IMG/VR virus record: IMGVR_UViG_3300021963_006848
Span: 1-64,000 of that record
Source: a virus
Reading direction: 5' to 3' (one strand)
DNA: 64,000 nt
Shown here: positions 12,355 to 60,332 of the stretch, one piece after another
How positions within the stretch are numbered: position 1 is the stretch's first letter
How the letters are laid out: each line of letters starts with the position of its first letter
The notes under the pieces: generated by a model
The model's database searches: none
Told to the model about the DNA's origin: nothing
What the model saw: the letters and a program-made list of their open reading frames with translations, nothing else
Made by a program: the position numbers and the translations under genes

Positions 12355-12588
12355 TTAAGCTGGCCATTTTCCTTTTGGACAGTTGTTTTGTGCTGGAGTT
12401 GCAGAAGTAAAGACCTTTCCTTTAAGAGGGCAGCCGCATGCATTACATACTTCTAATCCTAAAGCGTTTTCACCTTTAAATTCACAATTTGAACATATTC
12501 CGTATCTAATCTCTGCTAATCTTTTTCTAATAGGGGAAGGATTTATAGCTGTGGACCAAGCTTCTACTATTTCAAAGATTTTGTTCAT
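12355..12588 (-). CDS. Zinc-binding protein, paralogue of 24117-24404
   Basis: A 77-residue protein with CSNC, CNACGC and a final CPKGKW. The order W.T.INP...RL...RY.IC..C...C.CPL.GKVF matches the protein at 24117-24404 along its whole length, so the two are paralogues. Such small proteins occur widely in phage genomes; a zinc-ribbon role is clear from the cysteines, the target is not. Confidence 0.65.
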   Translation of the reverse strand: MNKIFEIVEAWSTAINPSPIRKRLAEIRYGICSNCEFKGENALGLEVCNACGCPLKGKVFTSATPAQNNCPKGKWPA

Positions 12589-16790: not shown

Positions 16791-16826
16791 ACACTTAAGA
16801 TACGAAAAAATATAATTAGAAACAAC
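16789..16826 (-). promoter_or_regulatory. Promoter ending the modification operon
   Basis: Minus strand: GTTG, 20 nt ending TTCG, then TATCTTAAG, directly against the 35-residue frame. The -33 element overlaps the stop codon of the sulfotransferase-like gene. There is no CTGCGT block. Confidence 0.65.
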
Positions 16827-17398
16827 TAAATTAGAGTCTTTTTTACCCCTAAATTATCTTTCCTGTACTTGTTATTCTTATCTAATAAAAAACGGTAATT
16901 TTTGCCTGTAATTCCAACATACTTATCTATTGTGTCTAAATCTTCTCCAGTTATATAAACTTTTTCATAAGTTGTTTTAAAATCATCAATACCTTCTATC
17001 TCTTTATATCCATCTTGAAACGATTCTAAATGCTTTTGTATATCTCCTTCCGGAACTTGTTTATCAGTATACATATAAGGTTCGTGCCAATGTTCTTGTG
17101 AATTTTCAAGAGCAGCATATGCAAAACTTTGTGCCTGCTCTAATGTATTTTCTCTCCAGAGTATAATAACTTTATCAAACTTATCTTTCAATTCTTTATA
17201 CCAATAACCTCCTTGTCCCCATATTGATTTTACAACTACATTATCTCTTTCAAAAATATCGTAGTCAGTTAAAGTTGACTGCCAGAATCGGGAATCGTGG
17301 AAAGGCTCTATTGCTACTAAGTAGTTTAAACTTTCTGCCAAGTAATAAGCTAGGTTTGTTGAACCTGTTCTAGGAAGAGCATAAATTAGTATTCGCAT
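16826..17398 (-). CDS. Sulfotransferase-like protein
   Basis: A 190-residue protein beginning with the PAPS-binding loop of sulfotransferases, LPRTGSTNLA (residues 8-17), and containing VIILWREN near residue 78, a plausible 3'-phosphate-binding strand. Sulfotransferases move sulfate from PAPS to hydroxyl or amine groups on proteins, sugars or small molecules. An APS kinase, which makes PAPS, is in the same operon (25377-25814). It ends KKTLI, the C-terminal residues shared by five other proteins here. It is the last gene of the run. Confidence 0.65.
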   Translation of the reverse strand: MRILIYALPRTGSTNLAYYLAESLNYLVAIEPFHDSRFWQSTLTDYDIFERDNVVVKSIWGQGGYWYKELKDKFDKVIILWRENTLEQAQSFAYAALENSQEHWHEPYMYTDKQVPEGDIQKHLESFQDGYKEIEGIDDFKTTYEKVYITGEDLDTIDKYVGITGKNYRFLLDKNNKYRKDNLGVKKTLI

Positions 17399-17772
17399 AT
17401 TGACTTTCCGTAGTTTTTATAATCTCTATTTACAAAGTTAGATTTAAAATACTCTCCTTTGGGCCGTTCTAACTTATATTCTACTACATGGTAACTTACC
17501 GTAATTTCATCTCCTCTATCAATAGGTCTATTGGCATATAAGTTATACCCATTCTCAGTTTTAACTAGCGTAGTATTAGGACGTTCACTATGGTTACAAA
17601 ATCTACCTAACGGATCACTTTCCCATAAAGTTGCTGTGAGCTTTCTTCCTAGTTTACTAGCTCTAGATTCAACATACTCACCTATAAATTCTTCTTCTTC
17701 AAAATAAGCATTTGAAAAAACTCCAACTCCTTTTATTGGTAATACTATAAGAGTAAAATTAGCTTCTATCAT
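17386..17772 (-). CDS. SET-domain protein
   Basis: A 128-residue protein with GVFSNAYFEEEEFIGEYVE near the N-terminus and GRFCNHSERPNTT followed by ANRPIDRGDEITVSY. These are the NHS and Y-motif signatures of SET-domain lysine methyltransferases. Length is close to the minimal SET fold. It probably methylates a lysine of a protein, perhaps another product of this operon, but no target is visible. Overlaps its neighbours by 4-13 nt. Confidence 0.75.
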   Translation of the reverse strand: MIEANFTLIVLPIKGVGVFSNAYFEEEEFIGEYVESRASKLGRKLTATLWESDPLGRFCNHSERPNTTLVKTENGYNLYANRPIDRGDEITVSYHVVEYKLERPKGEYFKSNFVNRDYKNYGKSICEY

Positions 17773-19289
17773 AGTACCTGAATATTATCTATAGAGTTAT
17801 CGTAAATGGTTTTTAAATTTATTTTTAGCTTTTCTCTAAGAGGAGCTAATTTAATATCTAAGTTAAGATCATTATTCTCTTCTATAAGTAATGTATTATT
17901 TAATACCCTTACACCAGCTCCTACTAGGTACCAACTGTACATATCAAATACGTCTGATTTACCTAATACAGATAAGTCCCCATTTTTTGGCGGCCTTATG
18001 CTCCATAACTTTAATAACGCTTTCAGTTTTTCTGGAGTCTCTGTTCTAGTTTTATATGTTCTCCAAAATTCTGTATCTTTTCTTTGAGTCATATAATGGT
18101 AATATAAGAATGCAACACATTCATCATTAAGTTCTCCTATAAGGTTATTGTAGATATCTCGAATACTTTGGTTATCTACTTTTAATGAACTAGGATCTAA
18201 GTTAAGGAGTTGCATTATTACAAGCATTACAGAAGTAGCTTCTAGAGGTTCTGTAAAACCAGCTGATAAGCCGATTGCAATACAATTCTTATGCCATACG
18301 TTTTTAAATCTTCCAGCATTAAATTTAAAGACTTTTGTACTTTCAATTGGGTGCCCTAAAAACTCTTCTACTTCTGCTCTAGCCTCTTGTTCGTTTATAA
18401 ACTTATCATCAAAAATATATCCACACCCCCATCTACCTTTCACAGGAATTTGCCACATCCAGCCATACTTCATAGCTATAGCTCTAGTCTCAGGTCTTAT
18501 AATTTTTTCAGTTTGAGGTAAGAAGAATGGAATAGCAGAATTTACTGTTAGTTGTTTATCGTAAGATACCCACTTTGAATTGTATGCATTACCTATTAAA
18601 AGTCTTTGAAATCCGCTACAATCAAAAATAAAATCACATTCGAAAAATCTTCCATCTTGTATAGATATACCTGTAATCATTTCGGATTCATTCATAAATA
18701 CTTTATCAAATTCTCCATCAACACATATAACACCTCTAGCTTCAGCAACTGAGCGTAAGTACTTAGCAACTTTTCTGGCATTAAAATGAAAAGAATATCC
18801 GACTGAGTTGTTAACTTTGTTACCTTCCTTATAAAAAGGACTTTTCTTTTCTTTAATCAACTTACTTGCAGGTATTACTTCATCTAAATCTTCTTTATTT
18901 GCTAAAGCATTTAGTATAAAGAAAGCACTATTAGTATTAGGTACTCCTGTGTTTGAATTTATATTAAGGTTATTAAGTTGTTTAAAATCTATTGACGAAC
19001 CGGGAGGTGCAGCAAATGGATGTAAGTAGTTTGTTCCATCTCCATTCCAATTTTCAAAATTTATTCCTAGTTTAAAAGTAGCGTCACATTCTTTTTTAAA
19101 CTCACCTAAGTTTATATTTAAACTTTGTAAAAATGCTGGTAATAAAGGTACTGATCCTTCTCCGGCACCTAAGATTCCTACCTTACTGCTTTCTATCAAA
19201 ACTACTCTGGTCTTTTCATAAAGCTGTTTTACTTGTAAAGCTGTTAACCACCCTGCTGTTCCTCCTCCTAATATAACTATATTTCTCAT
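17769..19289 (-). CDS. Flavin-dependent tryptophan halogenase
   Basis: A 506-residue protein, normal length for the family. It has the FAD-binding GGGTAGW (residues 8-14), the catalytic lysine in ATFKLGINFE (Lys73), WMWQIP (about 280), the WxWxIP signature, and the catalytic glutamate in GFTEPLEAT (about 345). All active-site features appear intact. These enzymes chlorinate or brominate tryptophan, free or in peptides, using FADH2 from a separate reductase; none is seen here. Related genes are known in cyanophages with unknown role. Confidence 0.9.
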   Translation of the reverse strand: MRNIVILGGGTAGWLTALQVKQLYEKTRVVLIESSKVGILGAGEGSVPLLPAFLQSLNINLGEFKKECDATFKLGINFENWNGDGTNYLHPFAAPPGSSIDFKQLNNLNINSNTGVPNTNSAFFILNALANKEDLDEVIPASKLIKEKKSPFYKEGNKVNNSVGYSFHFNARKVAKYLRSVAEARGVICVDGEFDKVFMNESEMITGISIQDGRFFECDFIFDCSGFQRLLIGNAYNSKWVSYDKQLTVNSAIPFFLPQTEKIIRPETRAIAMKYGWMWQIPVKGRWGCGYIFDDKFINEQEARAEVEEFLGHPIESTKVFKFNAGRFKNVWHKNCIAIGLSAGFTEPLEATSVMLVIMQLLNLDPSSLKVDNQSIRDIYNNLIGELNDECVAFLYYHYMTQRKDTEFWRTYKTRTETPEKLKALLKLWSIRPPKNGDLSVLGKSDVFDMYSWYLVGAGVRVLNNTLLIEENNDLNLDIKLAPLREKLKINLKTIYDNSIDNIQVL

Positions 19290-19768
19290 ATTAATGTTTT
19301 CTGTTCTTTATGAAGATAAGAATTTTCTGCTAAAAATGCAACTAAAGTATACCTTTGTCCTTCTATTACCGGAAGAACTCTATGTCTTAGAGTAGGTCCA
19401 AATATCATAGCCGTATTTTCTTCTGGTAGTATCTTTGATATTTCTTGATCTATATACTCAAATTCACCACCCGTGAAGTTTTGATTTAAAAAGCAAACTA
19501 AGTTTTCTTTATACTTAATATGATGACGGTGGTAGTTTTCTGTCATCCTTATGTTTTTATCTATTCGTTGAATTCTTAATATATCTATTTCCCCTACTAG
19601 ATTGTGTTTTCTAAATAAGCTTTCTACTTCTACATACAACTCCCCAGTAATATTACAGCCTCTGAAATTATAGATATCATCTTCTACTTTTCTATATTTA
19701 CAGATCTCAGCATATTCTAGAAGATTTCTGTGGAGATCTTTTGGTAAGAAGTTCTTGATAGTTTTCAT
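19286..19768 (-). CDS. Fe(II)/2-oxoglutarate oxygenase-like protein
   Basis: A 160-residue protein. NYHRHHIKYKENLVC..FLN...TGGEFEY and later RHRVLPVIEGQRYTLVAF fit the 2-oxoglutarate-dependent dioxygenase fold of prolyl-hydroxylase type: a metal-binding His, a GGEF strand, a second His and an Arg. It likely hydroxylates a peptide or small molecule. It ends QKTLI. Its start overlaps the halogenase stop by 4 nt. Confidence 0.68.
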   Translation of the reverse strand: MKTIKNFLPKDLHRNLLEYAEICKYRKVEDDIYNFRGCNITGELYVEVESLFRKHNLVGEIDILRIQRIDKNIRMTENYHRHHIKYKENLVCFLNQNFTGGEFEYIDQEISKILPEENTAMIFGPTLRHRVLPVIEGQRYTLVAFLAENSYLHKEQKTLI

Positions 19769-20472
19769 TAAATTAAAGTACTGCTCTTCTTATAAGGAGG
19801 TTCTATAAAATTAAAATAAAAGTCCTCTAAACTACTATCTATTGTTAAGTTACATTCTATATTCTTTGTATGGTTTGTTATAATAAAGTCAAAAGGCTTA
19901 CCTGTAATTTCCTTGACGTACTTTTCTATCTTACTATTTTCTTTTAGGTTAAAGTATAAGATACTTTCATCATTCTCATGCCACCTAGAAGGAGCTGTCA
20001 TTACAGATGAAAAAATCATGTAAGTATTCTTACTATAGGGTAAACCTGTAGGTATTAGTCTTTTGAAGAAATTACTACATTTTTCTATATCCTGTAAATT
20101 AGAACTAAATCCAATTTCGTTCTCCCAAGCGTTAATAAAGTCTAATGTAGTAGTGCTTGTTAAGATTTGAGCAGCTGTTACGTTATATTCAGCAATAAAC
20201 TTTATTACATATTTCCATGCAGATAAGAACCTATCTAAAGGATCTCTATTAATAGCTATTACAGGATAATCATATCCAAAATGTTCTCTTAGTTTTGAAA
20301 TTCGTTCATGTGCATGTCTACGAGGTTCTAAACCTCTGTCCGCCTGTCTTTGTGCTAGTACATTGTTTGTAGGGTACTTAATAGAGAACCCTGCTAGAAA
20401 ACAAGAACGTTCAAATGCTACTGTAGCTGTTCTAGGTATCTTAAGAAACAAAAACTTGTTATCTACTAACAT
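19768..20472 (-). CDS. Sulfotransferase-like protein
   Basis: A 234-residue protein starting with a PAPS-loop-like segment, FLKIPRTATVAFERS (residues 9-23), and VIAINRDPLDRFLSAWKY near residue 83, the 3'-phosphate-binding motif of sulfotransferases. The family resemblance is to the Sulfotransfer_2 and tyrosyl or carbohydrate types. It ends SSTLI. The start overlaps the stop of the next gene at 19768 by one base. Confidence 0.68.
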   Translation of the reverse strand: MLVDNKFLFLKIPRTATVAFERSCFLAGFSIKYPTNNVLAQRQADRGLEPRRHAHERISKLREHFGYDYPVIAINRDPLDRFLSAWKYVIKFIAEYNVTAAQILTSTTTLDFINAWENEIGFSSNLQDIEKCSNFFKRLIPTGLPYSKNTYMIFSSVMTAPSRWHENDESILYFNLKENSKIEKYVKEITGKPFDFIITNHTKNIECNLTIDSSLEDFYFNFIEPPYKKSSTLI

Positions 20473-20489
20473 ATAACCTTTTTATAAAA

Positions 20490-20603
20490 TTAAGATAAGT
20501 GCTTGTCTCTGATCAAACTTATTATAGACTCTATTGCATTTTTCACTTTTACATCTGTTGCGGGTGCTGTGGGTACTACCACAATATCTACTATATTTGC
20601 CAT
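20490..20603 (-). CDS. Small protein (37 residues) next to the Hint protein
   Basis: A 37-residue frame beginning MANIVDIVVVPTAPATDV, with an amphipathic C-terminal half. It starts one nucleotide after the stop of the 627-residue Hint protein, so it may be translationally coupled. It has no Cys or Trp. It could be a chaperone-like peptide or a substrate for the nearby enzymes, but there is no direct support. Confidence 0.45.
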   Translation of the reverse strand: MANIVDIVVVPTAPATDVKVKNAIESIISLIRDKHLS

Positions 20604-20604
20604 C

Positions 20605-22488
20605 TTATTGTAATTTTTTTGCCATGTTATGAACTAGTATTCCTTCTGCTATATAATTCTGAGTATCTTCAACTGAGATATTATATACTAATCCTTTATA
20701 ATCCTCAAATTCTATCGTCTCGATTAGAACCCAGTTCCCCATAAGGTTAATAAAGTACTTATCGGTTTCTAATTTTTCGACTACTAACTCTTTGTGAAAA
20801 TCTTTATCAGCTTCTGGATCTACTGCTGCCCATTTGATATTACCTTCGAAATCTTTAATAGCAAATGGATGTCCTACTGTAGCTTTAGTTCTTATTCCGT
20901 TTATAACTACAAGCTTATCATTGTAGTCTGATTTCCATATACCTTTTACCTTCTTTGTAACTATATCATTAGTATTAAAGTCAAAAGATTGTACTATATC
21001 TCCAACTTCTATATCTTTGATTTCTTTTTCACCATCTGCTGTAAATACTACAGCGTCGCCTACAAAGCATTGTGCTTGACAAGTCCAGCAAGAATTATAA
21101 CAACTCCACCAGCCGCAATTATATCCACTACACCAGCATGGGTTATGTTGTACTAATGCTATATTGGTTGATTCATCTAGAATAGATAAGAAAATATCTT
21201 GTTCTTCTACATCGAGTTCATAAATTAATTTGGTATCGTAAACCGCATCAAGAGCTACTATTTCTTTCTTTAAAAGCTCATTAGTAGCAACATCTAATAG
21301 AATTACCTTATCTCCTAATTCTACTTGACTAAGAGACTTAAACCTAGTTACTGTACTTCCACTAACTTCTGTATAAAAAGTAGATCTAGTAGAATCATCC
21401 CAAGTAGTTCCATCTTCTAAAGTAATATTCAAATAAACTGTTTCTAAACTAGAGCTGATAAATCCTACAACGTTAGCGGAGTTAACCTGTAATGAGCTCT
21501 CCATTTCTGCAAAAGAAGAAGAAAAAGCTAGGACATCAACAGAACCAGTAGGTAGGTTACTAAATTGAACTGATTTTACTACTGTTCCTTCTTCTACATC
21601 TTGGATAGATATATACTCTCCTGTAGGTGTTACAATTTTTGTATCTTCATCTACGTGGTATACGTTCTTCTGATTATCTGTAGAGAGTTTAGAAATCCAT
21701 TTAATTCTAGATTTATTAGTAAGTGCAGTTGTTCCTGCTTGTAATTCATCGGGCCAAATATCTAAACTATAAGGTGATGTTTGGTGATAAGAACCAAGGT
21801 GTAGTGTATCTAAAGTAGAACCATAAACTAAATCTAAACTTCTAATAATAGAATAACGTCCTTGTATAACATTATTTTCTGAATTGATAAACTCTTGTAT
21901 AAAATATGGTGCTGTAGTATTAGCCACTAACGTGTCATATTCAGTTTGATTTGTTATAGTATGTACTTGAGGGTATACTTTTGCATCATACTGAGGCTGT
22001 ACTGATTTAACTACAACGTTGGGTGCTTTAGTAGCATCAAATCCTGCCGGAATAGCGTACGATTGGCTTTGTATAAGTTCTTGTAAGTTTCCTTTATCTG
22101 CACAATACACATCATCTATTAAAGCTGTACTATCGAATGCCTGTCTAAGAATAAACTTCGTGGGAGAATCTTCTACATAAGGTACTGTGGTAGCATAAGT
22201 ACTTACTTGATAAGGAGTGTATGCAATACCTAAGCTCTCACAAATACTCTGTAGCTTTGTACCTAAAGAAAGATTAGCTCTAAACTTAGGATCTGTTACT
22301 AACTGTTGATCATTAAAGATATAAACTAACTCTGCTATAGAATTTGATTGAAGTAATGCTTCAAGCCCAGAAAAATCTAAATGCGGGATCATACTTTGGT
22401 AGATTCCGGCACTTGTATTTAATTCAACAAGCCTTGCGTTTCCATCATCATCAAGCAAGAAGTCACTTCCTATTAAAACAGCTTTCAT
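20605..22488 (-). CDS. ATP-grasp-like protein with two Hint domains flanking a Cys/Trp-rich peptide
   Basis: A 627-residue protein. Residues 1-275 look ATP-grasp-like: GSDFLLDDDGNARLVELNT at the N-terminus is a typical ATP-grasp metal-binding motif, out of its usual order, and YFIQEFINSEN (195-205) a nucleotide-binding one. Hint domain 1 (about 278-449) ends in QHN but has His278 in place of the intein nucleophile and lacks the block-B histidine (STRST). Hint domain 2 (474-621) has Cys474, TVGH (537-540) and HN (620-621), followed by Met, so it cannot splice. Between them, 450-473 holds six Cys, four Trp and two Tyr. Predicted result: the peptide is released or ligated by the flanking Hint domains. 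Confidence 0.75.
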   Translation of the reverse strand: MKAVLIGSDFLLDDDGNARLVELNTSAGIYQSMIPHLDFSGLEALLQSNSIAELVYIFNDQQLVTDPKFRANLSLGTKLQSICESLGIAYTPYQVSTYATTVPYVEDSPTKFILRQAFDSTALIDDVYCADKGNLQELIQSQSYAIPAGFDATKAPNVVVKSVQPQYDAKVYPQVHTITNQTEYDTLVANTTAPYFIQEFINSENNVIQGRYSIIRSLDLVYGSTLDTLHLGSYHQTSPYSLDIWPDELQAGTTALTNKSRIKWISKLSTDNQKNVYHVDEDTKIVTPTGEYISIQDVEEGTVVKSVQFSNLPTGSVDVLAFSSSFAEMESSLQVNSANVVGFISSSLETVYLNITLEDGTTWDDSTRSTFYTEVSGSTVTRFKSLSQVELGDKVILLDVATNELLKKEIVALDAVYDTKLIYELDVEEQDIFLSILDESTNIALVQHNPCWCSGYNCGWWSCYNSCWTCQAQCFVGDAVVFTADGEKEIKDIEVGDIVQSFDFNTNDIVTKKVKGIWKSDYNDKLVVINGIRTKATVGHPFAIKDFEGNIKWAAVDPEADKDFHKELVVEKLETDKYFINLMGNWVLIETIEFEDYKGLVYNISVEDTQNYIAEGILVHNMAKKLQ

Positions 22489-22538
22489 ATTATGAGTTTA
22501 AATTAATTCGTTTATATATAAATATCTAAGCGGACTGT

Positions 22539-22994
22539 TTATATAAGAGTCTTTGTACTTTTAATTCCGCTTCTTCTAAAATAGCTTATAAATAAGTACT
22601 GTGTTCCTTCTTCCACGCTTTCTAACTCTAGATCTATTCCGAAATCAAAGTAAACTGCTTTATTAGCTTCTGGTACAATTATGCTTTCTTTATATCTTAA
22701 TCCACCCCCAGAATAGTTTTCGTTAATAAAATAGATAATAAGTGCGTAATCTAGATCCTTAAATTGCTTATATATAGTCTTTATACCTTTACTTCTCTTA
22801 CTGAAATACATTTTATCACATTGGTAAGGAATACCAACTCCTAAGAACATGTTTTCAAAATCTATTGCAATCTGATGAGATGGGTATGTAAACCTATAAT
22901 AATTACCATCCGTATCATCTAATGCATACTTACCTTCAATATCGATAAGTCTATTTCGAAAATAATCAGGTAGTATGTTATCGAAGATTATCAT
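22539..22994 (-). CDS. Fe(II)/2-oxoglutarate oxygenase-like protein
   Basis: A 151-residue protein whose LIIYFINENYSGGGLRY...VYFDFG order matches the strand layout of the compact 2-oxoglutarate dioxygenases, though the metal-binding His-x-Asp is less clear than in its neighbours. It may be an inactive or divergent copy. It ends TKTLI with a stop codon and codons different from those of the other proteins sharing that ending. It lies 50 nt upstream of the Hint gene. Confidence 0.5.
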   Translation of the reverse strand: MIIFDNILPDYFRNRLIDIEGKYALDDTDGNYYRFTYPSHQIAIDFENMFLGVGIPYQCDKMYFSKRSKGIKTIYKQFKDLDYALIIYFINENYSGGGLRYKESIIVPEANKAVYFDFGIDLELESVEEGTQYLFISYFRRSGIKSTKTLI

Positions 22995-23587
22995 CTAATC
23001 TCTGTTATATTAAAGCTAATGTTTGAACAAATAGCAATTCTAGTTCCTTCTGAATTAGGAGATAAGTTAGGTTTATGTTCTACATCTCCTTTAAAAAATA
23101 TAAAATCTCCTTCGTTTGGCTTAGTTGCATATACCCTACCGTCTTTATCTCTAAGTAACAATGCACCCTCTTCTCCTTGTAAATCATAAGGTACTTGAAC
23201 ATAAAAGCAATAAGTCCAGTCTGTAAGAATAGGTGCATTAATCTTTGTATCCGGAAAGTTAATAGCAGCTGTATGCATATGAAAGCCGTTATCTGGATCT
23301 TTAGAGGTTTTATCTTGTATGTAACTCCATGTTTTACCTACCCAAATTGGTTTAGACTTCTCAGGTATATTGGATAAGCCTTTAGCAATCTTCTTACCGT
23401 ACTTAATAACATGGTCTATTTCTGGGCTATGAACTTTAATCTCTGTTGTATTAAAGTCTGTAGTACCTAATAGCCACTTATTCTGCTTTACTCTATATAT
23501 AATTTCATCTTGTCCGTAGGTCCAATCATATTGAGCTTTATAGATGGTGAGTGTATCACTTACTCTAAATTCTTTTACAGGTATCAT
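22991..23587 (-). CDS. 2-oxoglutarate oxygenase-like protein
   Basis: A 198-residue protein with HMHTAAINFPD near residue 102, VYATKPNEGDFIFFKGDVEHKP near 160 and TRIAICSN near the end, which reads as His...Asp/Glu...His...Arg of the 2-oxoglutarate dioxygenase fold. It lacks the TLI ending seen in its neighbours (ends ITEIR). It overlaps both neighbours by 4 nt. It likely hydroxylates an unknown acceptor. Confidence 0.55.
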   Translation of the reverse strand: MIPVKEFRVSDTLTIYKAQYDWTYGQDEIIYRVKQNKWLLGTTDFNTTEIKVHSPEIDHVIKYGKKIAKGLSNIPEKSKPIWVGKTWSYIQDKTSKDPDNGFHMHTAAINFPDTKINAPILTDWTYCFYVQVPYDLQGEEGALLLRDKDGRVYATKPNEGDFIFFKGDVEHKPNLSPNSEGTRIAICSNISFNITEIR

Positions 23588-24120
23588 ATAAGTGTCTTTG
23601 ATTCTTTTTGCTTAAATTCTATAAAGACTGTAAATGTAAGTCTTCCGTCTTTAATAGAAGTCCCAAACGGCTCTTGTACTGCATGGTTGATATTAGCAGG
23701 ATAGCATACAAATCTATTAAAAACATTTTCTACTTCGTCAATCTGAATATAGTTGTCATCATAGAAAGAAGTTCCGGAATTAGGTACTTGAAACGGAGCT
23801 AGATAAATTACTCCTGCGTAGTCTTTCCTACGGTCTTTATGTATACGGTTCTTACTGTACCCTTTCTCTTTTGTAGTATCTTCTAATGTATAATGGAAAT
23901 AACAATCATAAGCTGCTGTTGCAAACTTAGAATCTCTTTTACTTAATTCAGATTTTACAAGATTGGTTACTTTTAATGTAAGTTCGTTTTGCTTTAAACA
24001 TCTAAAACCCTTCCATCCTTGTTCTTCAAACGGAGGAGTATATTCTAACTCTAAAGCTTGATCTCTGATATCCCAGACGTCTTTTAAAAAATCATCTATC
24101 TGAATTAAACCTTGTATCAT
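23584..24120 (-). CDS. 2-oxoglutarate oxygenase-like protein
   Basis: A 178-residue protein with RIHKDRRKDYAGVIYLAPF near residue 93, GTSFYDD, NINHAVQEPFG and a final GRLTFTVFIEF. This gives the His-x-Asp, distal His and Arg set of Fe(II)/2-oxoglutarate dioxygenases, with normal family length. It ends SKTLI. It overlaps neighbours by 4 nt and is probably co-translated. Confidence 0.65.
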   Translation of the reverse strand: MIQGLIQIDDFLKDVWDIRDQALELEYTPPFEEQGWKGFRCLKQNELTLKVTNLVKSELSKRDSKFATAAYDCYFHYTLEDTTKEKGYSKNRIHKDRRKDYAGVIYLAPFQVPNSGTSFYDDNYIQIDEVENVFNRFVCYPANINHAVQEPFGTSIKDGRLTFTVFIEFKQKESKTLI

Positions 24121-24404
24121 ATTAATGTTTTATCTTGTTTAATTACTGAGCTTTCACTGAGGTATTTATCTTCAACTGGTAGCCATTTATGAAGAGGACA
24201 GCCATCATAGAGACGGCTGAATACCTTTCCTTCAAGTAAGCAAGAACATTCACCACAGTACTCTGACCATTTACGGTTATTAAATAGAGTCTCTCTCTTA
24301 GAACATTGTTCACATATTTCATAACGTTCTTGAGCTAGTTTCTTTTGACTCTCTTTTGGATTTATTTTAGTAATCCAGGCAGAGATAATCTCTTTCATAT
24401 CCAT
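24117..24404 (-). CDS. Zinc-binding protein, paralogue of 12355-12588
   Basis: A 95-residue protein with CEQC, CGEC and a final C, in the same order as the protein at 12355-12588 (INP...QKKLA..RYEIC..C...C..CLLEGKVF). This copy has an extra C-terminal tail of about 20 residues that ends DKTLI, like the nearby enzymes. The function is unknown; an operon-specific zinc protein with the shared tail suggests it works with these enzymes. Confidence 0.62.
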   Translation of the reverse strand: MDMKEIISAWITKINPKESQKKLAQERYEICEQCSKRETLFNNRKWSEYCGECSCLLEGKVFSRLYDGCPLHKWLPVEDKYLSESSVIKQDKTLI

Positions 24405-24405
24405 A

Positions 24406-24741
24406 CTACATACTTAAGTTTCTTATTATAATAGTCAAAGATATACAAATCCATATAGTGTTGAATAGGATTAAGGTAGGTAAACTCTTTCTCATACTAG
24501 CCCATATCAAAGCTGATGATGTAGTTAATGTTAAGAAATGTAACTGCCATACTTCTATTCCAAATATCAAACCTGGTATAATAATAGCTGCTTTAGACAT
24601 CCAAGCTGCTGCTTCTATTATATTATAATCAGTCCAGTAGTCCTTAGATAAATACATTTTGTACCTATCAAGAATCTTATTAAAACCTATAGTTGAATAT
24701 AAAACTGTAAGGAATATAAAAAATGTCAGTACATATATCAT
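24406..24741 (-). CDS. Membrane protein with about four helices
   Basis: A 111-residue hydrophobic protein with segments at about 1-22, 45-62, 67-84 and 87-108. No family is recognised. It lies between the DUF2061 gene and the TLI-tailed zinc protein and might anchor or supply substrate to the operon. Confidence 0.55.
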   Translation of the reverse strand: MIYVLTFFIFLTVLYSTIGFNKILDRYKMYLSKDYWTDYNIIEAAAWMSKAAIIIPGLIFGIEVWQLHFLTLTTSSALIWASMRKSLPTLILFNTIWICISLTIIIRNLSM

Positions 24742-24743
24742 AT

Positions 24744-24956
24744 CTAACTCTTCTTTAGTCCGTATTTAATCCACTTATACCAGACTCTTTCATGTATATA
24801 GTATTGGATAGGTTTCCAAAGTAATTCAGCTATTCCAAATGCTGCTCCAAACTTAACTGAACCTGTAACAGCCCACATTGTAGCAAATCCAATTGCTGTA
24901 CTAACTACTCTGTATGAGATAGTTTTAGCTATATGTCGTTTCTTTTCTACTATCAT
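24744..24956 (-). CDS. DUF2061 membrane protein
   Basis: A 70-residue protein, SYRVVSTAIGFATMWAVTGSV near the N-terminus and RVWYKWIKYG at the C-terminus, which matches the DUF2061 family. From memory this family is often encoded beside sulfate-activation genes (cysC, cysN). Here it overlaps the HxGH nucleotidyltransferase gene by 4 nt and sits next to APS kinase, which fits. Role in sulfate uptake or activation is inferred. Confidence 0.65.
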   Translation of the reverse strand: MIVEKKRHIAKTISYRVVSTAIGFATMWAVTGSVKFGAAFGIAELLWKPIQYYIHERVWYKWIKYGLKKS

Positions 24957-25354
24957 AACTTACCCTCCTCTTTCATCTTATTTCGTATGCCTGTAGCTGA
25001 GATGTCTCTAATCTCTTCTGGTGGCATATGCTCAATAACATCGTAACCAACTCCTCTTCCTATATTGATTGATTCAATATCTGGAATGATAATAATTTTT
25101 AACTTACCTTCTTCAATCAAATCTAATAATTCATTAGTTAGGTTACTCAATACCTCTTGAGGTGTCCATGGATTCTTTTCGTCAGGTTCTACATCTCTGA
25201 TAGCTAGTAGAACTCTTTTACCTTCTTTTAATCTTTGGTCTATCAACCAGCGATGCCCTGCATGCCAAGGTTGCCATCTGCCAATAAACATAGAGTACTT
25301 AACATCGTTAGATGAAGACTGAAATGCGGCAGTTGCTAAATATTTACTACTCAT
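24953..25354 (-). CDS. HxGH nucleotidyltransferase
   Basis: A 133-residue protein with FIGRWQPWHAGHRWLIDQRL (about 23-42), the HxGH motif of cytidylyl/adenylyltransferases, followed by ISATGIRNKM near the end, the second nucleotide-binding motif. Related short proteins are found beside or fused to APS kinases in some phages and bacteria. It could form APS or another adenylyl intermediate; a canonical ATP sulfurylase is not seen here. Confidence 0.7.
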   Translation of the reverse strand: MSSKYLATAAFQSSSNDVKYSMFIGRWQPWHAGHRWLIDQRLKEGKRVLLAIRDVEPDEKNPWTPQEVLSNLTNELLDLIEEGKLKIIIIPDIESINIGRGVGYDVIEHMPPEEIRDISATGIRNKMKEEGKL

Positions 25355-25376
25355 ATCTTAATGTATGAATTTTAAT

Positions 25377-25814
25377 TTAAAGCTCCAACTTATCTACTAA
25401 CTCTCTATAAGTATGGAAAGGATCCTTATTTGTAGTATCGACATCTAAGTAATTTTCCAAAGGCGGTTCGTAATTTTCTACATGAAAATGATTACGTCCT
25501 CTATCTTCAGATGTATGTACATAAATTTCAATTAAATCTTTTCCTAACCTAGCTTTAAAAGCTTCTCGTTGATCTCTATAAGGAGAAACTAAAGATACAA
25601 ATACGCAGTATCCTTTCTCATTTAAAAAGTAAGCTATATTCTGAGCTAGTTCTATATTCTTTCTTCTTCCAGCTTCTGAATAATCTTTGTTTTCAAAAAT
25701 TTCTCTAATATCATCTCCATCAACTGTTATAGCAGAATGATGTACGTGAATTTTCAATGAGGTAGCTAAGGTAGTCTTACCTGCTCCAGGTTGTCCTGTA
25801 AACCAGTATATCAT
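25377..25814 (-). CDS. cysC: Adenylylsulfate (APS) kinase
   Basis: A 145-residue protein with the P-loop FTGQPGAGKTTLA (residues 5-17), VDGDDIREIF (about 36-45) and the conserved RRKNIELAQ stretch, all hallmarks of APS kinase. It makes PAPS, the sulfate donor for sulfotransferases. A PAPS source plus two sulfotransferase-like proteins in one operon makes a complete sulfation module. The C-terminal region is a little shorter than typical enzymes. Confidence 0.8.
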   Translation of the reverse strand: MIYWFTGQPGAGKTTLATSLKIHVHHSAITVDGDDIREIFENKDYSEAGRRKNIELAQNIAYFLNEKGYCVFVSLVSPYRDQREAFKARLGKDLIEIYVHTSEDRGRNHFHVENYEPPLENYLDVDTTNKDPFHTYRELVDKLEL

Positions 25815-26773
25815 AATTTACTTTTTATAACTTTAATATTTTCTTCTGTTCCTTTTGTCCATTTATCAATTACATTCTTTTTATATTCCGGATCAGAATG
25901 TATTCCTATCTTCTCAAACCATACGTGATGGTATTTAACTTCCGGGTACATCCTTCTTATATTATCAAAATGTGTCCATCTAGGTGTATTACCGACTGCA
26001 GAAGATCCAACCGAGTCCGCAAATTGGATATATATTTTATTGATTGCATGACCGACAATAGCATCTTTATCTCTCATTATGTACCCTAGTATATTCTGAT
26101 CTGTCATTAACCATAACTCGTCCGGTACATAGTCATACTTCCTAGTTACAATATCTAAATGAAGTTCTCTATACCTGTCTATAATACTTTTTACCTTTTC
26201 ATTATCATTTATAAATAGGAAACAAGTATTAGGGATTAGCATTGCATCTGCAAATTCTGGAATATCTAATCCGAATTGATCTTTAGCTTTACTAACCGGT
26301 ACGTGTAACCATGCTCTTAGTAACTCCCAGTGAGCATGTACTATATCTTTATCAAAAACCCACTCTGGTATTTCAGCTTGTAAGAAGAAATCTGTATCCA
26401 TAAATAAAAATGGAGGTTTCTCATTACATATAGATAATACCTTACCGCTTGTCCAAAATTGAGCTGCATCTATACGAGTATCTTTGTTAACTAAATTAAG
26501 AAAGTCTGTATCAATTTCATCAAAATACTGTAACATATTCTCTTTACGGTAGTACTCATACCCGGCTGTATCTGTATACATTTTTATTGAAGCGCCAGTA
26601 TATCTTTTAGCTGAGGTAAAGCTATAAATTTGCATAACCTTTTCATACTCCTCTAACTTATAGTCAGGAGCTTCTTCTGGTGCATCTTTGAGGTAGCTTT
26701 TTATACCTGTAAACTTTTTCTTATTGAAATAAGGTTTAGTCCAGTTAACATATATTATTTTAAAATTACTCAT
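25811..26773 (-). CDS. GT-A type glycosyltransferase
   Basis: A 320-residue protein with FLFMDTDFFLQAEIP near residue 122, a DxD metal-binding motif, and late histidines (KYHHVWFEKIGIH). It is similar in design to the adjacent gene and to the 5358-6533 protein. It probably transfers a sugar to a surface glycan or a virion protein. Overlaps the next gene by 8 nt. Confidence 0.6.
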   Translation of the reverse strand: MSNFKIIYVNWTKPYFNKKKFTGIKSYLKDAPEEAPDYKLEEYEKVMQIYSFTSAKRYTGASIKMYTDTAGYEYYRKENMLQYFDEIDTDFLNLVNKDTRIDAAQFWTSGKVLSICNEKPPFLFMDTDFFLQAEIPEWVFDKDIVHAHWELLRAWLHVPVSKAKDQFGLDIPEFADAMLIPNTCFLFINDNEKVKSIIDRYRELHLDIVTRKYDYVPDELWLMTDQNILGYIMRDKDAIVGHAINKIYIQFADSVGSSAVGNTPRWTHFDNIRRMYPEVKYHHVWFEKIGIHSDPEYKKNVIDKWTKGTEENIKVIKSKL

Positions 26774-27530
26774 GAATAAAGTAGATATCTTTGTTAGCTT
26801 TTGTATTAATATAATTATTGAGTATATATTGGGAAGCCCACATATCCCCGTCGCTCTTACCTATACACACCTTAGGTTCAACTTTGTCTATATATTCGTC
26901 TAGACTATGTATATACCTATTAAAATACAGTAGAGCACAAAGCTCTTCTATGTTTGTTGTTAATGTCTTCTCTTTGAATATCCTAAAGAGGTCGTGAGTA
27001 AAAGAAGGATCTCTACTGTATACAAATCCAGCATTAGGTATAGCTAATCCACCATTGTACTCCCATTTACCATATCTTAGTATCTGATACATCATTAGAT
27101 TGAAGTAATGAGTCTTTTCTAAACCTTCTTCTTCTATAAACGGAGTTATAGTTTGAAACTTTTGAATAGCTTTTTGCGGGAAATAGTATAGAGGCATCTG
27201 TATCGACTCTCCTTTTTCTAAAATACTCCAAAAGTTACCATCCAAAGGTTTTTGTTGAATACAGTCCCAATCTAAGTATAGGAAAGGTCCTGTTAAAGAG
27301 GAAAGGCGGAAAGCAGTCAGCTTGTTAACAAACCAGCCCTCCCAGCCTATAGTATTTTCACCCATGTACTTAGTATTATATCCTAGATCCTTGATAAACT
27401 CTAAGTTCTCAAAATCCCAACAATATACTAATTGATCTTTAGGATGTAGTCCGTACTCAATACTAGCTTCTGTACATCGTTTTACTTCCTCATGATGTCT
27501 ATTTCCCCATATACACCTAATTATCCTCAT
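26766..27530 (-). CDS. GT-A type glycosyltransferase
   Basis: A 254-residue protein with FLYLDWDCIQQKPLDGN near residue 94 (DxD) and a preceding GWFVNKLTAFRL donor-binding helix. The layout matches DUF6734-like and GT32/GT8-type proteins. Acceptor unknown. Co-transcribed with the preceding gene from the promoter at 27772-27804. Confidence 0.6.
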   Translation of the reverse strand: MRIIRCIWGNRHHEEVKRCTEASIEYGLHPKDQLVYCWDFENLEFIKDLGYNTKYMGENTIGWEGWFVNKLTAFRLSSLTGPFLYLDWDCIQQKPLDGNFWSILEKGESIQMPLYYFPQKAIQKFQTITPFIEEEGLEKTHYFNLMMYQILRYGKWEYNGGLAIPNAGFVYSRDPSFTHDLFRIFKEKTLTTNIEELCALLYFNRYIHSLDEYIDKVEPKVCIGKSDGDMWASQYILNNYINTKANKDIYFIHE

Positions 27531-27804: not shown

Positions 27805-27840
27805 AATTAAAAAAAGAGCCGGAGGTGAGTCCGGCTCCCT
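27805..27840 (-). terminator. Intrinsic terminator after the DUF932-like gene
   Basis: Minus strand: GAGCCGGA, a 6-nt loop, TCCGGCTC, then TTTTTTT. This is an 8-bp stem with a U-tract, 13 nt after the stop at 27853. A textbook intrinsic terminator. Confidence 0.9.
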
Positions 27841-27852
27841 TATATTTACTAA

Positions 27853-42657: not shown

Positions 42658-43935
42658 TTAATCTATTTTTTCTAATTTTGGTAAATTTAATTTAGGGAGC
42701 ATTAGCTCTATCTGTTTAGGGAACACCGGTACGTAATTTGTTAGGATCTCGTCCAAAGCTTCTTTCATCTTATCAAAGCTGAAATTAGTTCTATTTTTAT
42801 ACCCTAACTTCTTAGCATTAACTCGATACTTATCATAATTTTTATACAACTCTTTCATTGCCACAATTGCATGATTATCATAAGGAAAAAACCAACTACT
42901 ACCTTCAACTAAAACTTCTTCTGCTATTGAGCTTTTATGTAGAGGTTTTAATTCTCCACCAACTAAAATCGATAACTCCTTATCAAGAAAATCTATATGT
43001 CCAGACCAAGCTGATGCGATAATAGGTTTATTTACTAAGCTAAATTCTAATAGAGGTCTGCCGAAGCCTTCTCCTTTAGTTAAGCTAACCATAGCTTTTA
43101 CTTTAGCGTTATTATACAACTCATTCATTTCTTCATCTGTCAAGTCTCCATGAAGTAAGTATATATTAGGTAAAGTACCTTTAACTTCGTTTCTGATCTT
43201 TTCTATATTGTTTAAGATCTTATTTCTATCCATAATAGAAGATGTAACCATACTTACCTTTAATATAAGAGCTGGTGGATTAGGCTTATTTTTAAATGCT
43301 TCTAAGAACAATCTAACAAGCAATCCGATATTCTTTCTATCATGACCTAATGCTCCGGGTAGCCAATGCCCTACTGCTAAAAAACAAAAGGCTTCAGGTA
43401 TGTCATTTTTTAAATTAAACCTAGTAGGTAATTCTAATGGACGGTACTTATTTGTATCTGCGCCCTCAAATAGAATCTCAATAGGTTTAGTTACTTCAAT
43501 TTTCTCTCTAGTACCTCTTGCTGTATCTGTCATATCGTACTTACTTTCTTCAAATACTAACTTAGAATGTGCTGAAGATGTTAGTACTAAGTCCATTACA
43601 TTACACCCCATTACCCATTGAGGAGAAGCTAATGTAGTCTCTATACCGGCAGTTACTCCAATATTAAACTTACCTACTCTTTGAAACTCATTAGGTACAG
43701 TAATCTGAATCCAAATATCCGGTTCATAAGTTAACTGCGGTATAATAAGGCTTGCTAGGTCGTCTCGTTTATGATCATCTAAATAACCCTGTCTTGTATT
43801 CCCCCATCGTTGAGATAAGATACGTACATCGTATTTCTCTAATGCTAATAAAGCTTGTACAAAATCTCTTGCTCTAGCTCCATATCCGGAGTAGGTATCT
43901 ACTGGGCAGCTTACTACAACCTTTATCTTACTCAT
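42658..43935 (-). CDS. Glycosyltransferase family 4
   Basis: A 425-residue GT-B protein: an N-terminal Rossmann-like half with YSGYGARARDF, and a C-terminal half with SLTKGEGFGRPLLEFSLVNKP and IASAWSGHIDF, the GT4 donor-binding motif with EGFGRP. Paralogous to the next gene. Overlaps it by 8 nt. Confidence 0.8.
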   Translation of the reverse strand: MSKIKVVVSCPVDTYSGYGARARDFVQALLALEKYDVRILSQRWGNTRQGYLDDHKRDDLASLIIPQLTYEPDIWIQITVPNEFQRVGKFNIGVTAGIETTLASPQWVMGCNVMDLVLTSSAHSKLVFEESKYDMTDTARGTREKIEVTKPIEILFEGADTNKYRPLELPTRFNLKNDIPEAFCFLAVGHWLPGALGHDRKNIGLLVRLFLEAFKNKPNPPALILKVSMVTSSIMDRNKILNNIEKIRNEVKGTLPNIYLLHGDLTDEEMNELYNNAKVKAMVSLTKGEGFGRPLLEFSLVNKPIIASAWSGHIDFLDKELSILVGGELKPLHKSSIAEEVLVEGSSWFFPYDNHAIVAMKELYKNYDKYRVNAKKLGYKNRTNFSFDKMKEALDEILTNYVPVFPKQIELMLPKLNLPKLEKID

Positions 43936-45382
43936 AACTATATTTACTTAATTTATGTTGAATGTAATTTTTATCTAATTTGTCTACTCGGATAATATCG
44001 TACTTACCTCTAGGTGTAAACGTATTAAAAGTTTCATCTATTGCTGCAATTACGTTCTTACCCATGTTGGTAGCTGTCATCATCGCTTCATCAGATAGTA
44101 CCCACTCTCGTCCAGCTGCTCCTCTCTTTACTCTTTCCTCAGGACTCATGTTATAAACTTTCTCTATTGCGAGTGCTATATCTTCTGGTGAACTTCTATC
44201 GTCAAAGATATAAGGTGTTTGTGGGGATCCTACTAACGATAAGTTAGATGGGAAAACCGGTACAGCCCATTCTCCGCATTCTTTGATAGTACCTCTATGA
44301 TTAGATGGAAAGTCTTTAGTTAATTCGACCCATTTACCATCTTTAGAGAATCTCATCTGGTCTTGCATTCCACCGGTTACGTTAGCAATAATCATAGTAC
44401 CTGTCATCATAGACTCTGTTAAGGATAATCCCCAACCTTCGTTAGCTGAAGTAAGTACTGTTACGTCTGCTAAGTTATAAAGCAGGTTCATTTGTGCTGT
44501 GTTTAATCTCTCTGCTGAGAAGAATACATTCACATAAGAAGGATCACATAAAGCTTCTTTTACTGCTGCAAGATCTGTACCGTTTTGGTCTACTACTTGA
44601 GTATGCATAACTAAAGCACATTTCTTAGCTGCTTCTTCTCCGATGTTATCACAGAAGAACCTATAAGCTAAAATTAGATCTTCTACTTTCTTTCTATGTA
44701 TGTTTCGTGAATTAAAGAATACTACATATTGTATATCTTTTCCTTTAAATACCTCTTTTTTAAACTCTACAAACTTATCCCAATCTTCATAACTTTCAGT
44801 AATAGGGAAGAAGTACTTTTCATTTACTCCGTGAGGTACGTACTTAATAACCTTATCTTCAGCTTTATCTCCTAATACAAGCTCGTTAATTAATTTTGTC
44901 TGTTTAGAGATAGCCATTAATAAATCTACCGATTCATAGTAAGGCTTGTTATACATTGGAGTAGGATAATTATCCCAGATATTCAAATAGAAAATAGGTA
45001 TTTTAGACCTGATTTCTCTCTCCATATCAAACAACCATATCCAATATCGAGGATCTGTAAAAATAAAGATAGCATCGGGTTTTTCATCCTTTAATAATTT
45101 TCTAAGCTTAAACGGATCTCCATATCCTGTGCTTGGATAAATTTTAACAGAAGCATCTTCTACCCCTGTTTCTTTTGAAGTATCTTCAGATAGGTCTATG
45201 ATTGTACCTTCTTCTTTGTGTTGAACAGCAGCTCCAAGATTTACCCAATTATAACGATGAGCAGTAGCTAGTACAATTTCTTTAGCCATTGTACCTACAC
45301 CTGAATGTACTCTAATATCATCGCATAAAAGTAAAATCTTTTTACGCTCTTCTTTCTTCAAATAACCAATTCTTTCTTGCAT
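43928..45382 (-). CDS. Glycosyltransferase family 4
   Basis: A 484-residue GT-B protein with an N-terminal HSGVGTMAKEIVLAT segment and, in the C-terminal half, LTSANEGWGLSLTESMMTGTMIIA, a clear GT4 donor-binding motif. Slightly longer than average. Works with the adjacent GT4 in extending a glycan. Confidence 0.82.
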   Translation of the reverse strand: MQERIGYLKKEERKKILLLCDDIRVHSGVGTMAKEIVLATAHRYNWVNLGAAVQHKEEGTIIDLSEDTSKETGVEDASVKIYPSTGYGDPFKLRKLLKDEKPDAIFIFTDPRYWIWLFDMEREIRSKIPIFYLNIWDNYPTPMYNKPYYESVDLLMAISKQTKLINELVLGDKAEDKVIKYVPHGVNEKYFFPITESYEDWDKFVEFKKEVFKGKDIQYVVFFNSRNIHRKKVEDLILAYRFFCDNIGEEAAKKCALVMHTQVVDQNGTDLAAVKEALCDPSYVNVFFSAERLNTAQMNLLYNLADVTVLTSANEGWGLSLTESMMTGTMIIANVTGGMQDQMRFSKDGKWVELTKDFPSNHRGTIKECGEWAVPVFPSNLSLVGSPQTPYIFDDRSSPEDIALAIEKVYNMSPEERVKRGAAGREWVLSDEAMMTATNMGKNVIAAIDETFNTFTPRGKYDIIRVDKLDKNYIQHKLSKYSYE

Positions 45383-56597: not shown

Positions 56598-56861
56598 TTA
56601 ATACTCTCCGTAAAGATCAAATTTCTCTGGTTCCGGAGGGGTAACTGTGATTTCCTGCTCACGGATTGCATAAAGCTTTCCGGCAAGTGGATCTAATCTA
56701 TATGCTCCTTTAAACTTAGTCTTACGTAGGTAGGTTGTCAATGTTGGAACCAACCCTTCTATAACAACTCCTAAATCTATGTTCAGCTCCCAGTTATCAC
56801 CAGGAGGAACACGGGTAGCAATATGCTCTGTGAATTCTTGTTTAATTACTTCTGTTGCCAT
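56598..56861 (-). CDS. Hypothetical protein
   Basis: An 87-residue acidic protein of strands and turns, with no recognised domain. It follows queF directly (1-nt overlap) and ends at a terminator, so it is the last gene of the deazaguanine run. Confidence 0.55.
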   Translation of the reverse strand: MATEVIKQEFTEHIATRVPPGDNWELNIDLGVVIEGLVPTLTTYLRKTKFKGAYRLDPLAGKLYAIREQEITVTPPEPEKFDLYGEY

Positions 56862-57775
56862 TATTGACGTAACGTTTTAGCGATAGTGTATTCTGGTTCT
56901 GTAAAGAAATCTGGGATGTAGCTCTGATGAGTAGCTCGGATAGGGTTAATATCTAAACCTCCTCTACGGGTGTATAAACATGCTACCATTAACTGCTCTG
57001 GTTTATATGCATCAGTTAAATGCTTGAATACCATTTCACAAATCTCTTCATGGAAGTGGGATACAGTTCTATGAGATACAATATACTTTGCTAAAGACTC
57101 AGGAGAAGGCATATTCGTACCTTCCATACGGATGTAAACATCGCCCCAGTCTGGTTGATTTGTTACTCTACAGTTTGAACGTAATAAGTTAGACTTATAC
57201 CGTACTTCTGCTGTTCCTACTTCTGCAACGAATTTAGTTTCTAACTGACTAGCATCAGATTTAAAGGAAGTAAAATCTACTTGATCTAAATCAGCTGCAT
57301 CAGCTAAATCTACATAACCTTCGAATGTAATTGGATTAGCTTCTTCTATCGTTGAATAGAAACTAACTGTAGTAGTGGTATTTAGTAACTCATCTAAATC
57401 TCTCTTTACCCTAGCTTCAATACCTGCAATACAATCTGCTGCTGTTTCTCCGATACGAGTCATATTAAATGAGTTTAGGTATAGTTTAATAGATTTAGAC
57501 TCTACGTGAAACTCTGAAGAAGCAGGGCATACAATCTTCAACATACCTGCTACAGGCTGTCCTTTAGTTGTAATGGCTGAAACCTCATATGCATTCCATG
57601 TATCTACTCCTACGAATTCTTTACCAGATAACTCATAAGCTTCTCGATTTAAGTATCGAGGAATCTTTACTAACAATTCCGGATCATAGGTATCTTTATA
57701 ACCTTCACCACCGACTTTACCTAAATGCTTACCGGCAATGGCTACTACTGCTTCTTGATTTTTTTCGTTTGACAT
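56861..57775 (-). CDS. queF: preQ0 reductase QueF (bimodular type)
   Basis: A 304-residue protein: IPRYLNREAYEL, FVGVDTWNAYEVSAI, ESKSIKLYLNSFNMTR, LRSNCRVTNQPDWGDVYI (with the active-site Cys and Asp), HFHEEICE and CLYTRRGGLDINPIRA. This matches the long QueF of E. coli type, which reduces preQ0 to preQ1 with NADPH. QueF beside a DpdA-type enzyme means preQ1, not preQ0, is the likely DNA base here. About 20 residues longer than the E. coli enzyme. Confidence 0.92.
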   Translation of the reverse strand: MSNEKNQEAVVAIAGKHLGKVGGEGYKDTYDPELLVKIPRYLNREAYELSGKEFVGVDTWNAYEVSAITTKGQPVAGMLKIVCPASSEFHVESKSIKLYLNSFNMTRIGETAADCIAGIEARVKRDLDELLNTTTTVSFYSTIEEANPITFEGYVDLADAADLDQVDFTSFKSDASQLETKFVAEVGTAEVRYKSNLLRSNCRVTNQPDWGDVYIRMEGTNMPSPESLAKYIVSHRTVSHFHEEICEMVFKHLTDAYKPEQLMVACLYTRRGGLDINPIRATHQSYIPDFFTEPEYTIAKTLRQ

Positions 57776-57776
57776 A

Positions 57777-58295
57777 TTATTTTATAAAATTTAAAATTTG
57801 ATCTACTCTTTGCATAGGTGAACCAGTTATAGTTAAGTAAGGTTGTCTAACTGTTTCTAATTCTGATTTAAAACGTTCATCTATCTTCTTTCTCCACTCT
57901 TCATTAACACTTCTCACTCCATCATCTACTGATTCGAATTCAATAGGAAAATAAACATAATGTGTGTATTCTCCTTTGATTCTATTCCAAGTATCTTGAA
58001 TAAAGTCATGAGTACCTCTATCTATACCATCCATGAAACAAGTATAAACTAAAACGTCCATATAGCATCTATCTAAGACTAAGTTATAAGGCTTAAGTAA
58101 AGCTTCTAAGTGAAAAGAACTAATAGCTAACTGAGTAGCATCACTGCCATACTCGTTAATAGGAAAACCATAACTTGCTACAGTTCGAGTAGATTCATTT
58201 ATAAACTCATACTTAGGTAATTTATTCTTAAGAAGCTCATATACCGTAGTCTTACCTGTGCTACTTGCTCCTACTAATGCTATTCTTTTTATCAT
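57777..58295 (-). CDS. P-loop kinase, NadR/AAA_28-like
   Basis: A 172-residue protein with IALVGASSTGKTTVYELL (4-21), a Walker A motif, LDRCYMDVLVY (about 73-83), and a Walker B-like stretch VYFPIEF. It resembles the small ATPases and nucleotide kinases of the NadR-C-terminal type. It may phosphorylate a nucleoside or base related to DNA modification. Overlaps the formyltransferase gene by 4 nt. Confidence 0.65.
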   Translation of the reverse strand: MIKRIALVGASSTGKTTVYELLKNKLPKYEFINESTRTVASYGFPINEYGSDATQLAISSFHLEALLKPYNLVLDRCYMDVLVYTCFMDGIDRGTHDFIQDTWNRIKGEYTHYVYFPIEFESVDDGVRSVNEEWRKKIDERFKSELETVRQPYLTITGSPMQRVDQILNFIK

Positions 58296-59636: not shown

Positions 59637-59823
59637 TTGTTATATCGTTTAGAGTTTTTTGAACATCTTGCAATTGCTCTGCTAACTTGTCAAGTAAATC
59701 ATCTGCTTGCTTTGTTAGGTCAACATTATTTAACAGAGAAATAACTGCCGATAAGGGCACCATTTCAGTCTGGTATGCTTGTACATAGACAGCATGCTTT
59801 TTTATATCTTCTATTAACGACAT
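59629..59823 (-). CDS. Hypothetical helical protein
   Basis: A 64-residue helical protein with leucine spacing typical of a coiled coil (about 30-60). It overlaps DpdA by 8 nt and MazG-like by 1 nt. Function unknown. Confidence 0.5.
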   Translation of the reverse strand: MSLIEDIKKHAVYVQAYQTEMVPLSAVISLLNNVDLTKQADDLLDKLAEQLQDVQKTLNDITND

Positions 59824-60293: not shown

Positions 60294-60296
60294 ATA

Positions 60297-60329
60297 CTTA
60301 ATTTACGAAATTAATCAATAGGAAGCAAC
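60297..60329 (-). promoter_or_regulatory. Promoter of the conserved phage class
   Basis: Minus strand: GTTGC, 20 nt ending TTCG, then TAAATTAAG, 4 nt before the ATG at 60293. Confidence 0.68.
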
Positions 60330-60332
60330 TTA

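Follow-up and report, generated by a model that had tools for sequence, protein, structure and literature searches.

A candidate RiPP-like peptide-tailoring pathway of phages in which unrelated enzymes share a short C-terminal tag

On what substrate would a virus use a halogenase, oxygenases and sulfotransferases that it encodes side by side? The question is raised by a stretch of DNA, here called the window, that comprises positions 1 to 64,000 of the IMG/VR virus record IMGVR_UViG_3300021963_006848 (97,038 bases in full). At 16826–25814 a tightly packed run of genes, all on the minus strand, encodes modification-type enzymes surrounding a Hint protein, which we term ATPG. An earlier note on this DNA had described such a cluster and likened it to a peptide natural-product cluster inside a phage. 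Every gene that it named is found, and the likeness is supported by the co-occurrence of enzymes with ATPG, by a C-terminal tag that the enzymes share, and by the absence of one sulfotransferase and the halogenase from phages in which ATPG has lost its core peptide. We propose, with a probability of roughly 0.6, that the operon is a phage-encoded peptide-tailoring pathway similar to those of ribosomally synthesized and post-translationally modified peptides (RiPPs). The gene order and content of the module recur in relatives.

The shared tag, K-[ST]-[LI]-[IL]-COOH, stands at the very C-terminus of mutually unrelated enzymes. Six module proteins of the window, most of them unrelated to one another, end in KTLI or STLI; these endings had been missed in the earlier note, as had a tiny open reading frame (ORF) at 20490–20603. 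No further plausible gene of the 97-kb record bears the tag, and one spurious antisense ORF ends in PTLI. In relatives the tag drifts to KSII, KSLI, KTVI and KTFI, which indicates that it is conserved as protein. C-terminal [ST][LIVF][ILV] was counted across the 2,532 non-identical proteins predicted in the fetched loci: it is observed 312 times, where internal tripeptides would predict 17, with TLI found 86 times (1.0 expected) and SLI 78 times (0.7 expected). Lysine is favoured at positions −4 and −7 of tagged C-termini. KTLI is encoded by 23 different 12-base strings and is followed by all three stop codons, and the tag is present in 34 of 41 genes whose end lies over 60 nt away from the following gene and in 232 of 302 overlapping ones; codon diversity and distance to the next gene together reject an artefact of start sites or gene overlap. 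The similarity of tags within loci (0.602 versus 0.567, p<0.0005) is suggestive only, as phylogeny was not controlled.

Which proteins bear the tag was counted in loci fetched by the ATPG family alone, to avoid bias. The tag is found on all 75 copies of the sulfotransferase ST2, on most members of two 2-oxoglutarate (2OG) oxygenase-like groups (OX2, 56/61; OX, 118/153) and on 56 of 62 copies of a small zinc-ribbon-like protein, ZR, and less often on the sulfotransferase-like protein ST1 (24/71) and the halogenase (10/55). It is absent from ATPG (0/75), adenosine 5′-phosphosulfate (APS) kinase (0/28), the nucleotidyltransferase (0/36) and DUF2061 proteins (0/38), and occurs once among 74 SGNH-type proteins. 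The six modification families are tagged in 339 of 477 cases against 47 of 1,097 elsewhere, a contrast to be read qualitatively since sequences within families are related and Fisher values overstate their independence; many of the remaining 47 are radical S-adenosylmethionine (SAM) proteins, methyltransferases and glycosyltransferase-like proteins, with one SET protein, as judged by Pfam or by eye. The idea of a single pathway is qualified by the SET protein, which is almost never tagged, and by the APS kinase and nucleotidyltransferase, which never are. At 76 halogenase loci that lack ATPG, oxygenase-like neighbours are tagged once in 83 cases and halogenases never (0/72), and the tag is rejected as a general trait of phage 2OG enzymes or halogenases.

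The protein at the centre of the module, ATPG (20605–22488, minus strand; 627 residues; PF14890), would be both precursor and hub, and consists of an ATP-grasp-like domain, a first Hint domain (Hint1), a core peptide and a second Hint domain (Hint2). The family has 255 confirmed matches in IMG/VR viral contigs and was not found in 84,980 bacterial and archaeal species genomes. Neither two typical precursors (L150 and L115 types) nor ST2 matched anything in isolated phages, where the window ATPG matched solely the Hint2 part of Vibrio-phage proteins. In four records the capsid gene could be clearly identified, and these carriers are T4-like (Gp23, E about 1e-77).

Motif and profile evidence suggests that the N-terminal domain of ATPG (residues 1–270; 21679–22488) is probably a circularly permuted ATP-grasp. 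In its approximately 270 residues IGSDFL...dG..kflEiNTN lies at the N-terminus, and this position of E-x-N is the arrangement of the permuted ATP-grasp in eukaryotic glutathione synthetase. Residues D9, E21, N23, R112, D116, K173 and R230 (L150 numbering) are invariant in 47 of 47 aligned sequences. With the profile permuted to the usual order, five PDB chains were matched, all of them ATP-grasp proteins with homoglutathione synthetase first, although at weak E values of 0.3–1.1; RimK was matched (E 0.0035) by one of eight members.

Hint1 (21142–21663) matches the profile of the KlbA intein 2jmz (E 9e-6) and is degenerate, in that the Cys1 position reads YH[TV]D... and TxxH is absent. His-Asn is kept at the junction of Hint1 and core in all 89 ATPG proteins (88 by script, one by sequence inspection), followed by S or T in 46 of the 88 parsed and otherwise by P, G, A, V and others. 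Since Hint1 has lost the N-terminal activation residues but keeps His-Asn, cleavage after Asn is predicted. Hint2 (20626–21069; PF14890, E 1.3e-12) lies right after the core, is complete as an intein-like domain (Cys1, TxxH and His-Asn, with Met at +1) and occurs in 7 of 47 members, in the window clade only. In two other phages (L116:327–2252 and L139:28–1107) an S74 endosialidase-type chaperone/autoprotease follows the core and replaces Hint2; the assignment is by Pfam in L116 (E 0.006) and by similarity in L139. Hint domains with Cys at their start also occur elsewhere in the genomes of ATPG phages (L240:5852–7513 and L241:4621–5124), one of them in a 553-residue protein near a tail-sheath-like gene.

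Between the Hint domains of the window lies the core, PCWCSGYNCGWWSCYNSCWTCQAQ (21070–21141, minus strand). A segment rich in Cys, Trp and Tyr follows His-Asn in nearly all ATPG members, typically in the form SCWCPWNYCGHWCNSWYCPGC, and in most of them the protein ends with it. Core and leader are distinct in the 47-sequence alignment, where the leader is conserved and holds the invariant residues; Cys amounts to 21.6% of the core versus 0.7% of the leader, and Trp to 9.5% versus 0.7%. The 72 cores of CWC type hold 6.2 Cys on average and Trp and Tyr in every one, with Asp and Glu at 1% each. Because every core is preceded by a domain of self-processing type, and some are followed by one as well, the core appears meant to be cut out.

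Directly after ATPG lies the tiny ORF (20490–20603, minus strand), which was previously unannotated and encodes 37 residues ending ...LIRDKHLS; a similar ORF (...KHLS) occupies this position in 89 of 89 loci. ATPG and this tiny protein are the candidate receptors for the tag. ZR is disfavoured as receptor, being tagged itself and not seen in L014–L016, three records in which the core is lost. The tag resembles class I PDZ ligands ([ST]-x-hydrophobic-COOH), and no PDZ receptor for it was identified, with no systematic PDZ search made. ATPG itself ends in K-[LIVAF] in 62 of 89 cases, a second short conserved C-terminus that is distinct from the enzyme tag.

Co-occurrence had been suggested in the earlier note as a check on the cluster. 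ST2, both oxygenase groups and ZR travel with ATPG, which is present at 59 of 61 ST2 loci with 3 kb of downstream sequence. The halogenase does so less strictly: 16 halogenase-bearing phage records of up to 188 kb contained no ATPG over their whole length, in a search whose positive control worked. The enzyme is widespread in phages without ATPG and is untagged there, and is thus an optional member of the module. Four records (L010, L014, L015 and L016), from two lineages of the tree, have an ATPG that is coreless or nearly so, and over these whole records of 55–169 kb both ST2 and the halogenase are absent. L010 retains tagged oxygenase-like proteins. The persistence of tagged enzymes in coreless phages points to a link of the tag with ATPG, or with the gene next to ATPG, and not with the core.

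From these observations we infer the following mechanism. ATPG would be the precursor, its large leader (the ATP-grasp-like domain and Hint1) presenting the Cys/Trp/Tyr-rich core, and most enzymes would be recruited as their C-terminal tags dock on ATPG, on the tiny protein or on a co-localizing partner. The core would then be modified by sulfotransferases, oxygenases and the halogenase, and in other phages by radical-SAM, methyltransferase and glycosyltransferase-like proteins. The sulfate donor 3′-phosphoadenosine-5′-phosphosulfate would come from the APS kinase encoded upstream, and probably from the nucleotidyltransferase as well. Hint1 would cut after Asn, freeing the N-terminus of the core, probably through Asn cyclization, and Hint2 in the window clade, or S74 in L116 and L139, may free, trim or activate the other end.

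Several findings weigh against this reading. Besides L010, the coreless L014–L016 retain a few tagged methyltransferase, glycosyltransferase-like, oxygenase-like or radical-SAM proteins, so that tagged enzymes may have another target. L153 and L214 have Trp-bearing cores yet no halogenase, by which a strict tie between halogenase and Trp is rejected, and a contrast between CWCP cores with halogenase and CWCS cores without it appears to rest on one clade. One tagged oxygenase-like protein of the window (22539–22994) has no metal ligands by eye, the ATP-grasp assignment is weak (E 0.3–1.1; RimK in one of eight), and the Pro that follows His-Asn in 13 of 88 members could hinder cleavage. Tail-fibre genes, moreover, adjoin the module in several phages, and virion proteins could be the target.

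This last point leads to the alternative that survives best, although we consider it unlikely: the module may modify the virion surface, either because ATPG is a virion or tail-tip protein that keeps its Cys/aromatic peptide attached or has it matured on the particle, or because the enzymes decorate adjacent tail fibres. In L014, L016, L207 and L225 the genes next after the module are giant ones of tail-fibre type, that of L207 matching tail-fibre PHROGs; the S74-type chaperone that ends ATPG in L116 and L139 is of a kind found on tail fibres, and a tail-region protein of an ATPG phage (L240) contains a Hint domain. Most modules, including that of the window, are nevertheless not seen beside fibre genes, and ATPG matches no known virion protein.

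It is more doubtful still that the tag is a localization signal, comparable to peroxisomal SKL or an encapsulin cargo peptide, which would gather enzymes of diverse substrates in a viral compartment or on a membrane. A common short C-terminal address on unrelated enzymes, the frequent presence of membrane-type genes (DUF2061/TM111) upstream of the module and the few tagged enzymes that remain in coreless phages would all suit such a signal, but the tag is tied to ATPG and is no general feature of phages that have similar enzymes. Less probable again is that the tagged C-termini are themselves ATP-grasp substrates, their ...[ST]LI carboxylate being activated and ligated to the core peptide or to an amino acid. 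RimK and tubulin-tyrosine ligase are ATP-grasp ligases that act on C-terminal carboxylates, the tag is exactly C-terminal, and ATPG has the invariant E-x-N and basic residues; the ATP-grasp assignment is weak, however, and enzymes serving as substrates would imply an odd stoichiometry. That the genes are independent auxiliary cargo, adjacent by chance and acting on glycans, DNA or host metabolites, is scarcely credible, for although halogenases and 2OG oxygenases are found separately in cyanophages and other viruses, the pathway-wide tag, the conserved order and the near-obligate co-occurrence with ATPG disfavour it strongly.

The peptide-tailoring reading can be set beside known systems. The module would work like a RiPP pathway, with which it shares a conserved leader, a core rich in Cys and aromatic residues and tailoring enzymes in one operon, but its leader, release and recruitment differ from those of any class known to us: it is found in viruses only, the leader of about 450 residues contains ATP-grasp-like and Hint-like domains, and the enzymes are tagged at their C-termini. 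To our knowledge, no RiPP pathway recruits unrelated enzymes by a shared C-terminal tag. The probable ATP-grasp domain would be a feature in common with graspetides, but the rings of graspetide cores pair Asp or Glu with Thr, Ser or Lys, and Asp and Glu are nearly absent from this core, so that graspetide identity is rejected. Hint1 shares its profile match and His-Asn end with class-2 (KlbA-type) inteins, but differs from splicing inteins in having no Cys1, TxxH or fixed +1 nucleophile (Cys, Ser or Thr); it is rejected as a splicing intein, and C-terminal cleavage alone is predicted. Peroxisomal targeting signal 1 (SKL), encapsulin cargo peptides and class I PDZ ligands likewise place a short free C-terminal peptide on unrelated proteins, whereas the tag described here is pathway-specific and belongs to a prokaryotic virus. 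The window halogenase is of the family of viral flavin-dependent halogenases (VirX1-type, in cyanophages and pelagiphage HTVC008M), but none of the examined loci has ATPG, ST2 or the tag. In HTVC008M and others the halogenase lies near 2OG-oxygenase genes (Gkotsi 2019, as cited in PMC10452541). The open-access literature, of which our coverage is incomplete, gave no description of this combination of enzymes, precursor and tag.

We put forward, more tentatively than the pathway itself and at somewhat less than even odds, that the module represents a class of peptide natural-product pathway peculiar to viruses. Its tailoring enzymes, which are not homologous to one another (oxygenase, sulfotransferase, radical SAM, methyltransferase, glycosyltransferase-like and sometimes halogenase), would have converged on one C-terminal tag by which they plug into a self-cleaving ATP-grasp/Hint precursor, as a platform for a sulfated, hydroxylated and halogenated Cys-rich peptide. 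If this is true, phages build their own elaborate peptide natural product, phage halogenases and sulfotransferases of obscure purpose have natural substrates, and a portable four-residue docking code exists. It would also raise the question of how the peptide affects hosts, competitors and virions; decoration of adhesins, an effect on competitors and host takeover are all possible roles.

The remaining genes of the module, all on the minus strand, are given here in ascending coordinates. ST1 (16826–17398) has no Pfam match, contains by eye LPRTGST (PRTGST), which is like a 5′-phosphosulfate-binding motif, and ends in KKTLI (tag codons 16829–16840). The untagged SET-domain protein (17386–17772; PF00856, E 6e-12) is followed by the flavin-dependent tryptophan halogenase (17769–19289; PF04820, E 6e-107), untagged in the window, which matches its family over the full length and keeps the GxGxxG and WMWQIP (WxWxIP) motifs. 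ST2 (19768–20472; PF03567, E 9e-5) ends in SSTLI (tag codons 19771–19782).

The earlier note had counted up to four oxygenase-like proteins, and four are present; by eye, only one of them has the canonical HxD...H...R, namely the DUF6445 protein at 23584–24120 (PF20043, E 4e-10; phrog_1644, E 9e-22), which ends in SKTLI (tag codons 23587–23598). HxH...H...R, again by eye, replaces it in the protein at 19286–19768 (phrog_61, E 5e-12; ending QKTLI, tag codons 19289–19300) and in OX2 (22991–23587; phrog_81, E 3e-6). OX2 is untagged in the window, and in L009 it ends in PSLI. The fourth (22539–22994), the oxygenase-fold protein without metal ligands, matches PF13640 at E 0.077 only and ends in TKTLI (tag codons 22542–22553). 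Among relatives, a loose HxD/E...H pattern fits 120 of 137 tagged OX proteins.

ZR (24117–24404; phrog_13558, E 2e-7) ends in DKTLI (tag codons 24120–24131), and a small untagged protein that resembles it is encoded at 12355–12588 (minus strand). Two small untagged membrane-type proteins (24406–24956), one of 111 residues and one of DUF2061 (24744–24956; PF09834, E 7e-15), precede the untagged nucleotidyltransferase (24953–25354; PF01467) and APS kinase (25377–25814; PF01583, E 4e-19), which are probable sulfate-activation helpers. A scan for promoters and terminators was uninformative except for a terminator-like site at 27812–27841. In the closest relative, a radical-SAM/SPASM-like protein, recognized by eye, lies just past the module (L008:17650–18927, plus strand); it is absent from the module of the window.

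Further genes of the window, all on the minus strand, lie outside the module. Untagged DUF6734/glycosyltransferase-like genes adjoin it at 25811–27530, and other glycosyltransferase genes, likewise untagged, are found at 42658–45382. GroEL and GroES are encoded by the phage at 50888–52824, and QueF, GTP cyclohydrolase I and QueE-like genes at 56861–63604 make up a 7-deazaguanine pathway, which may serve to modify bases.

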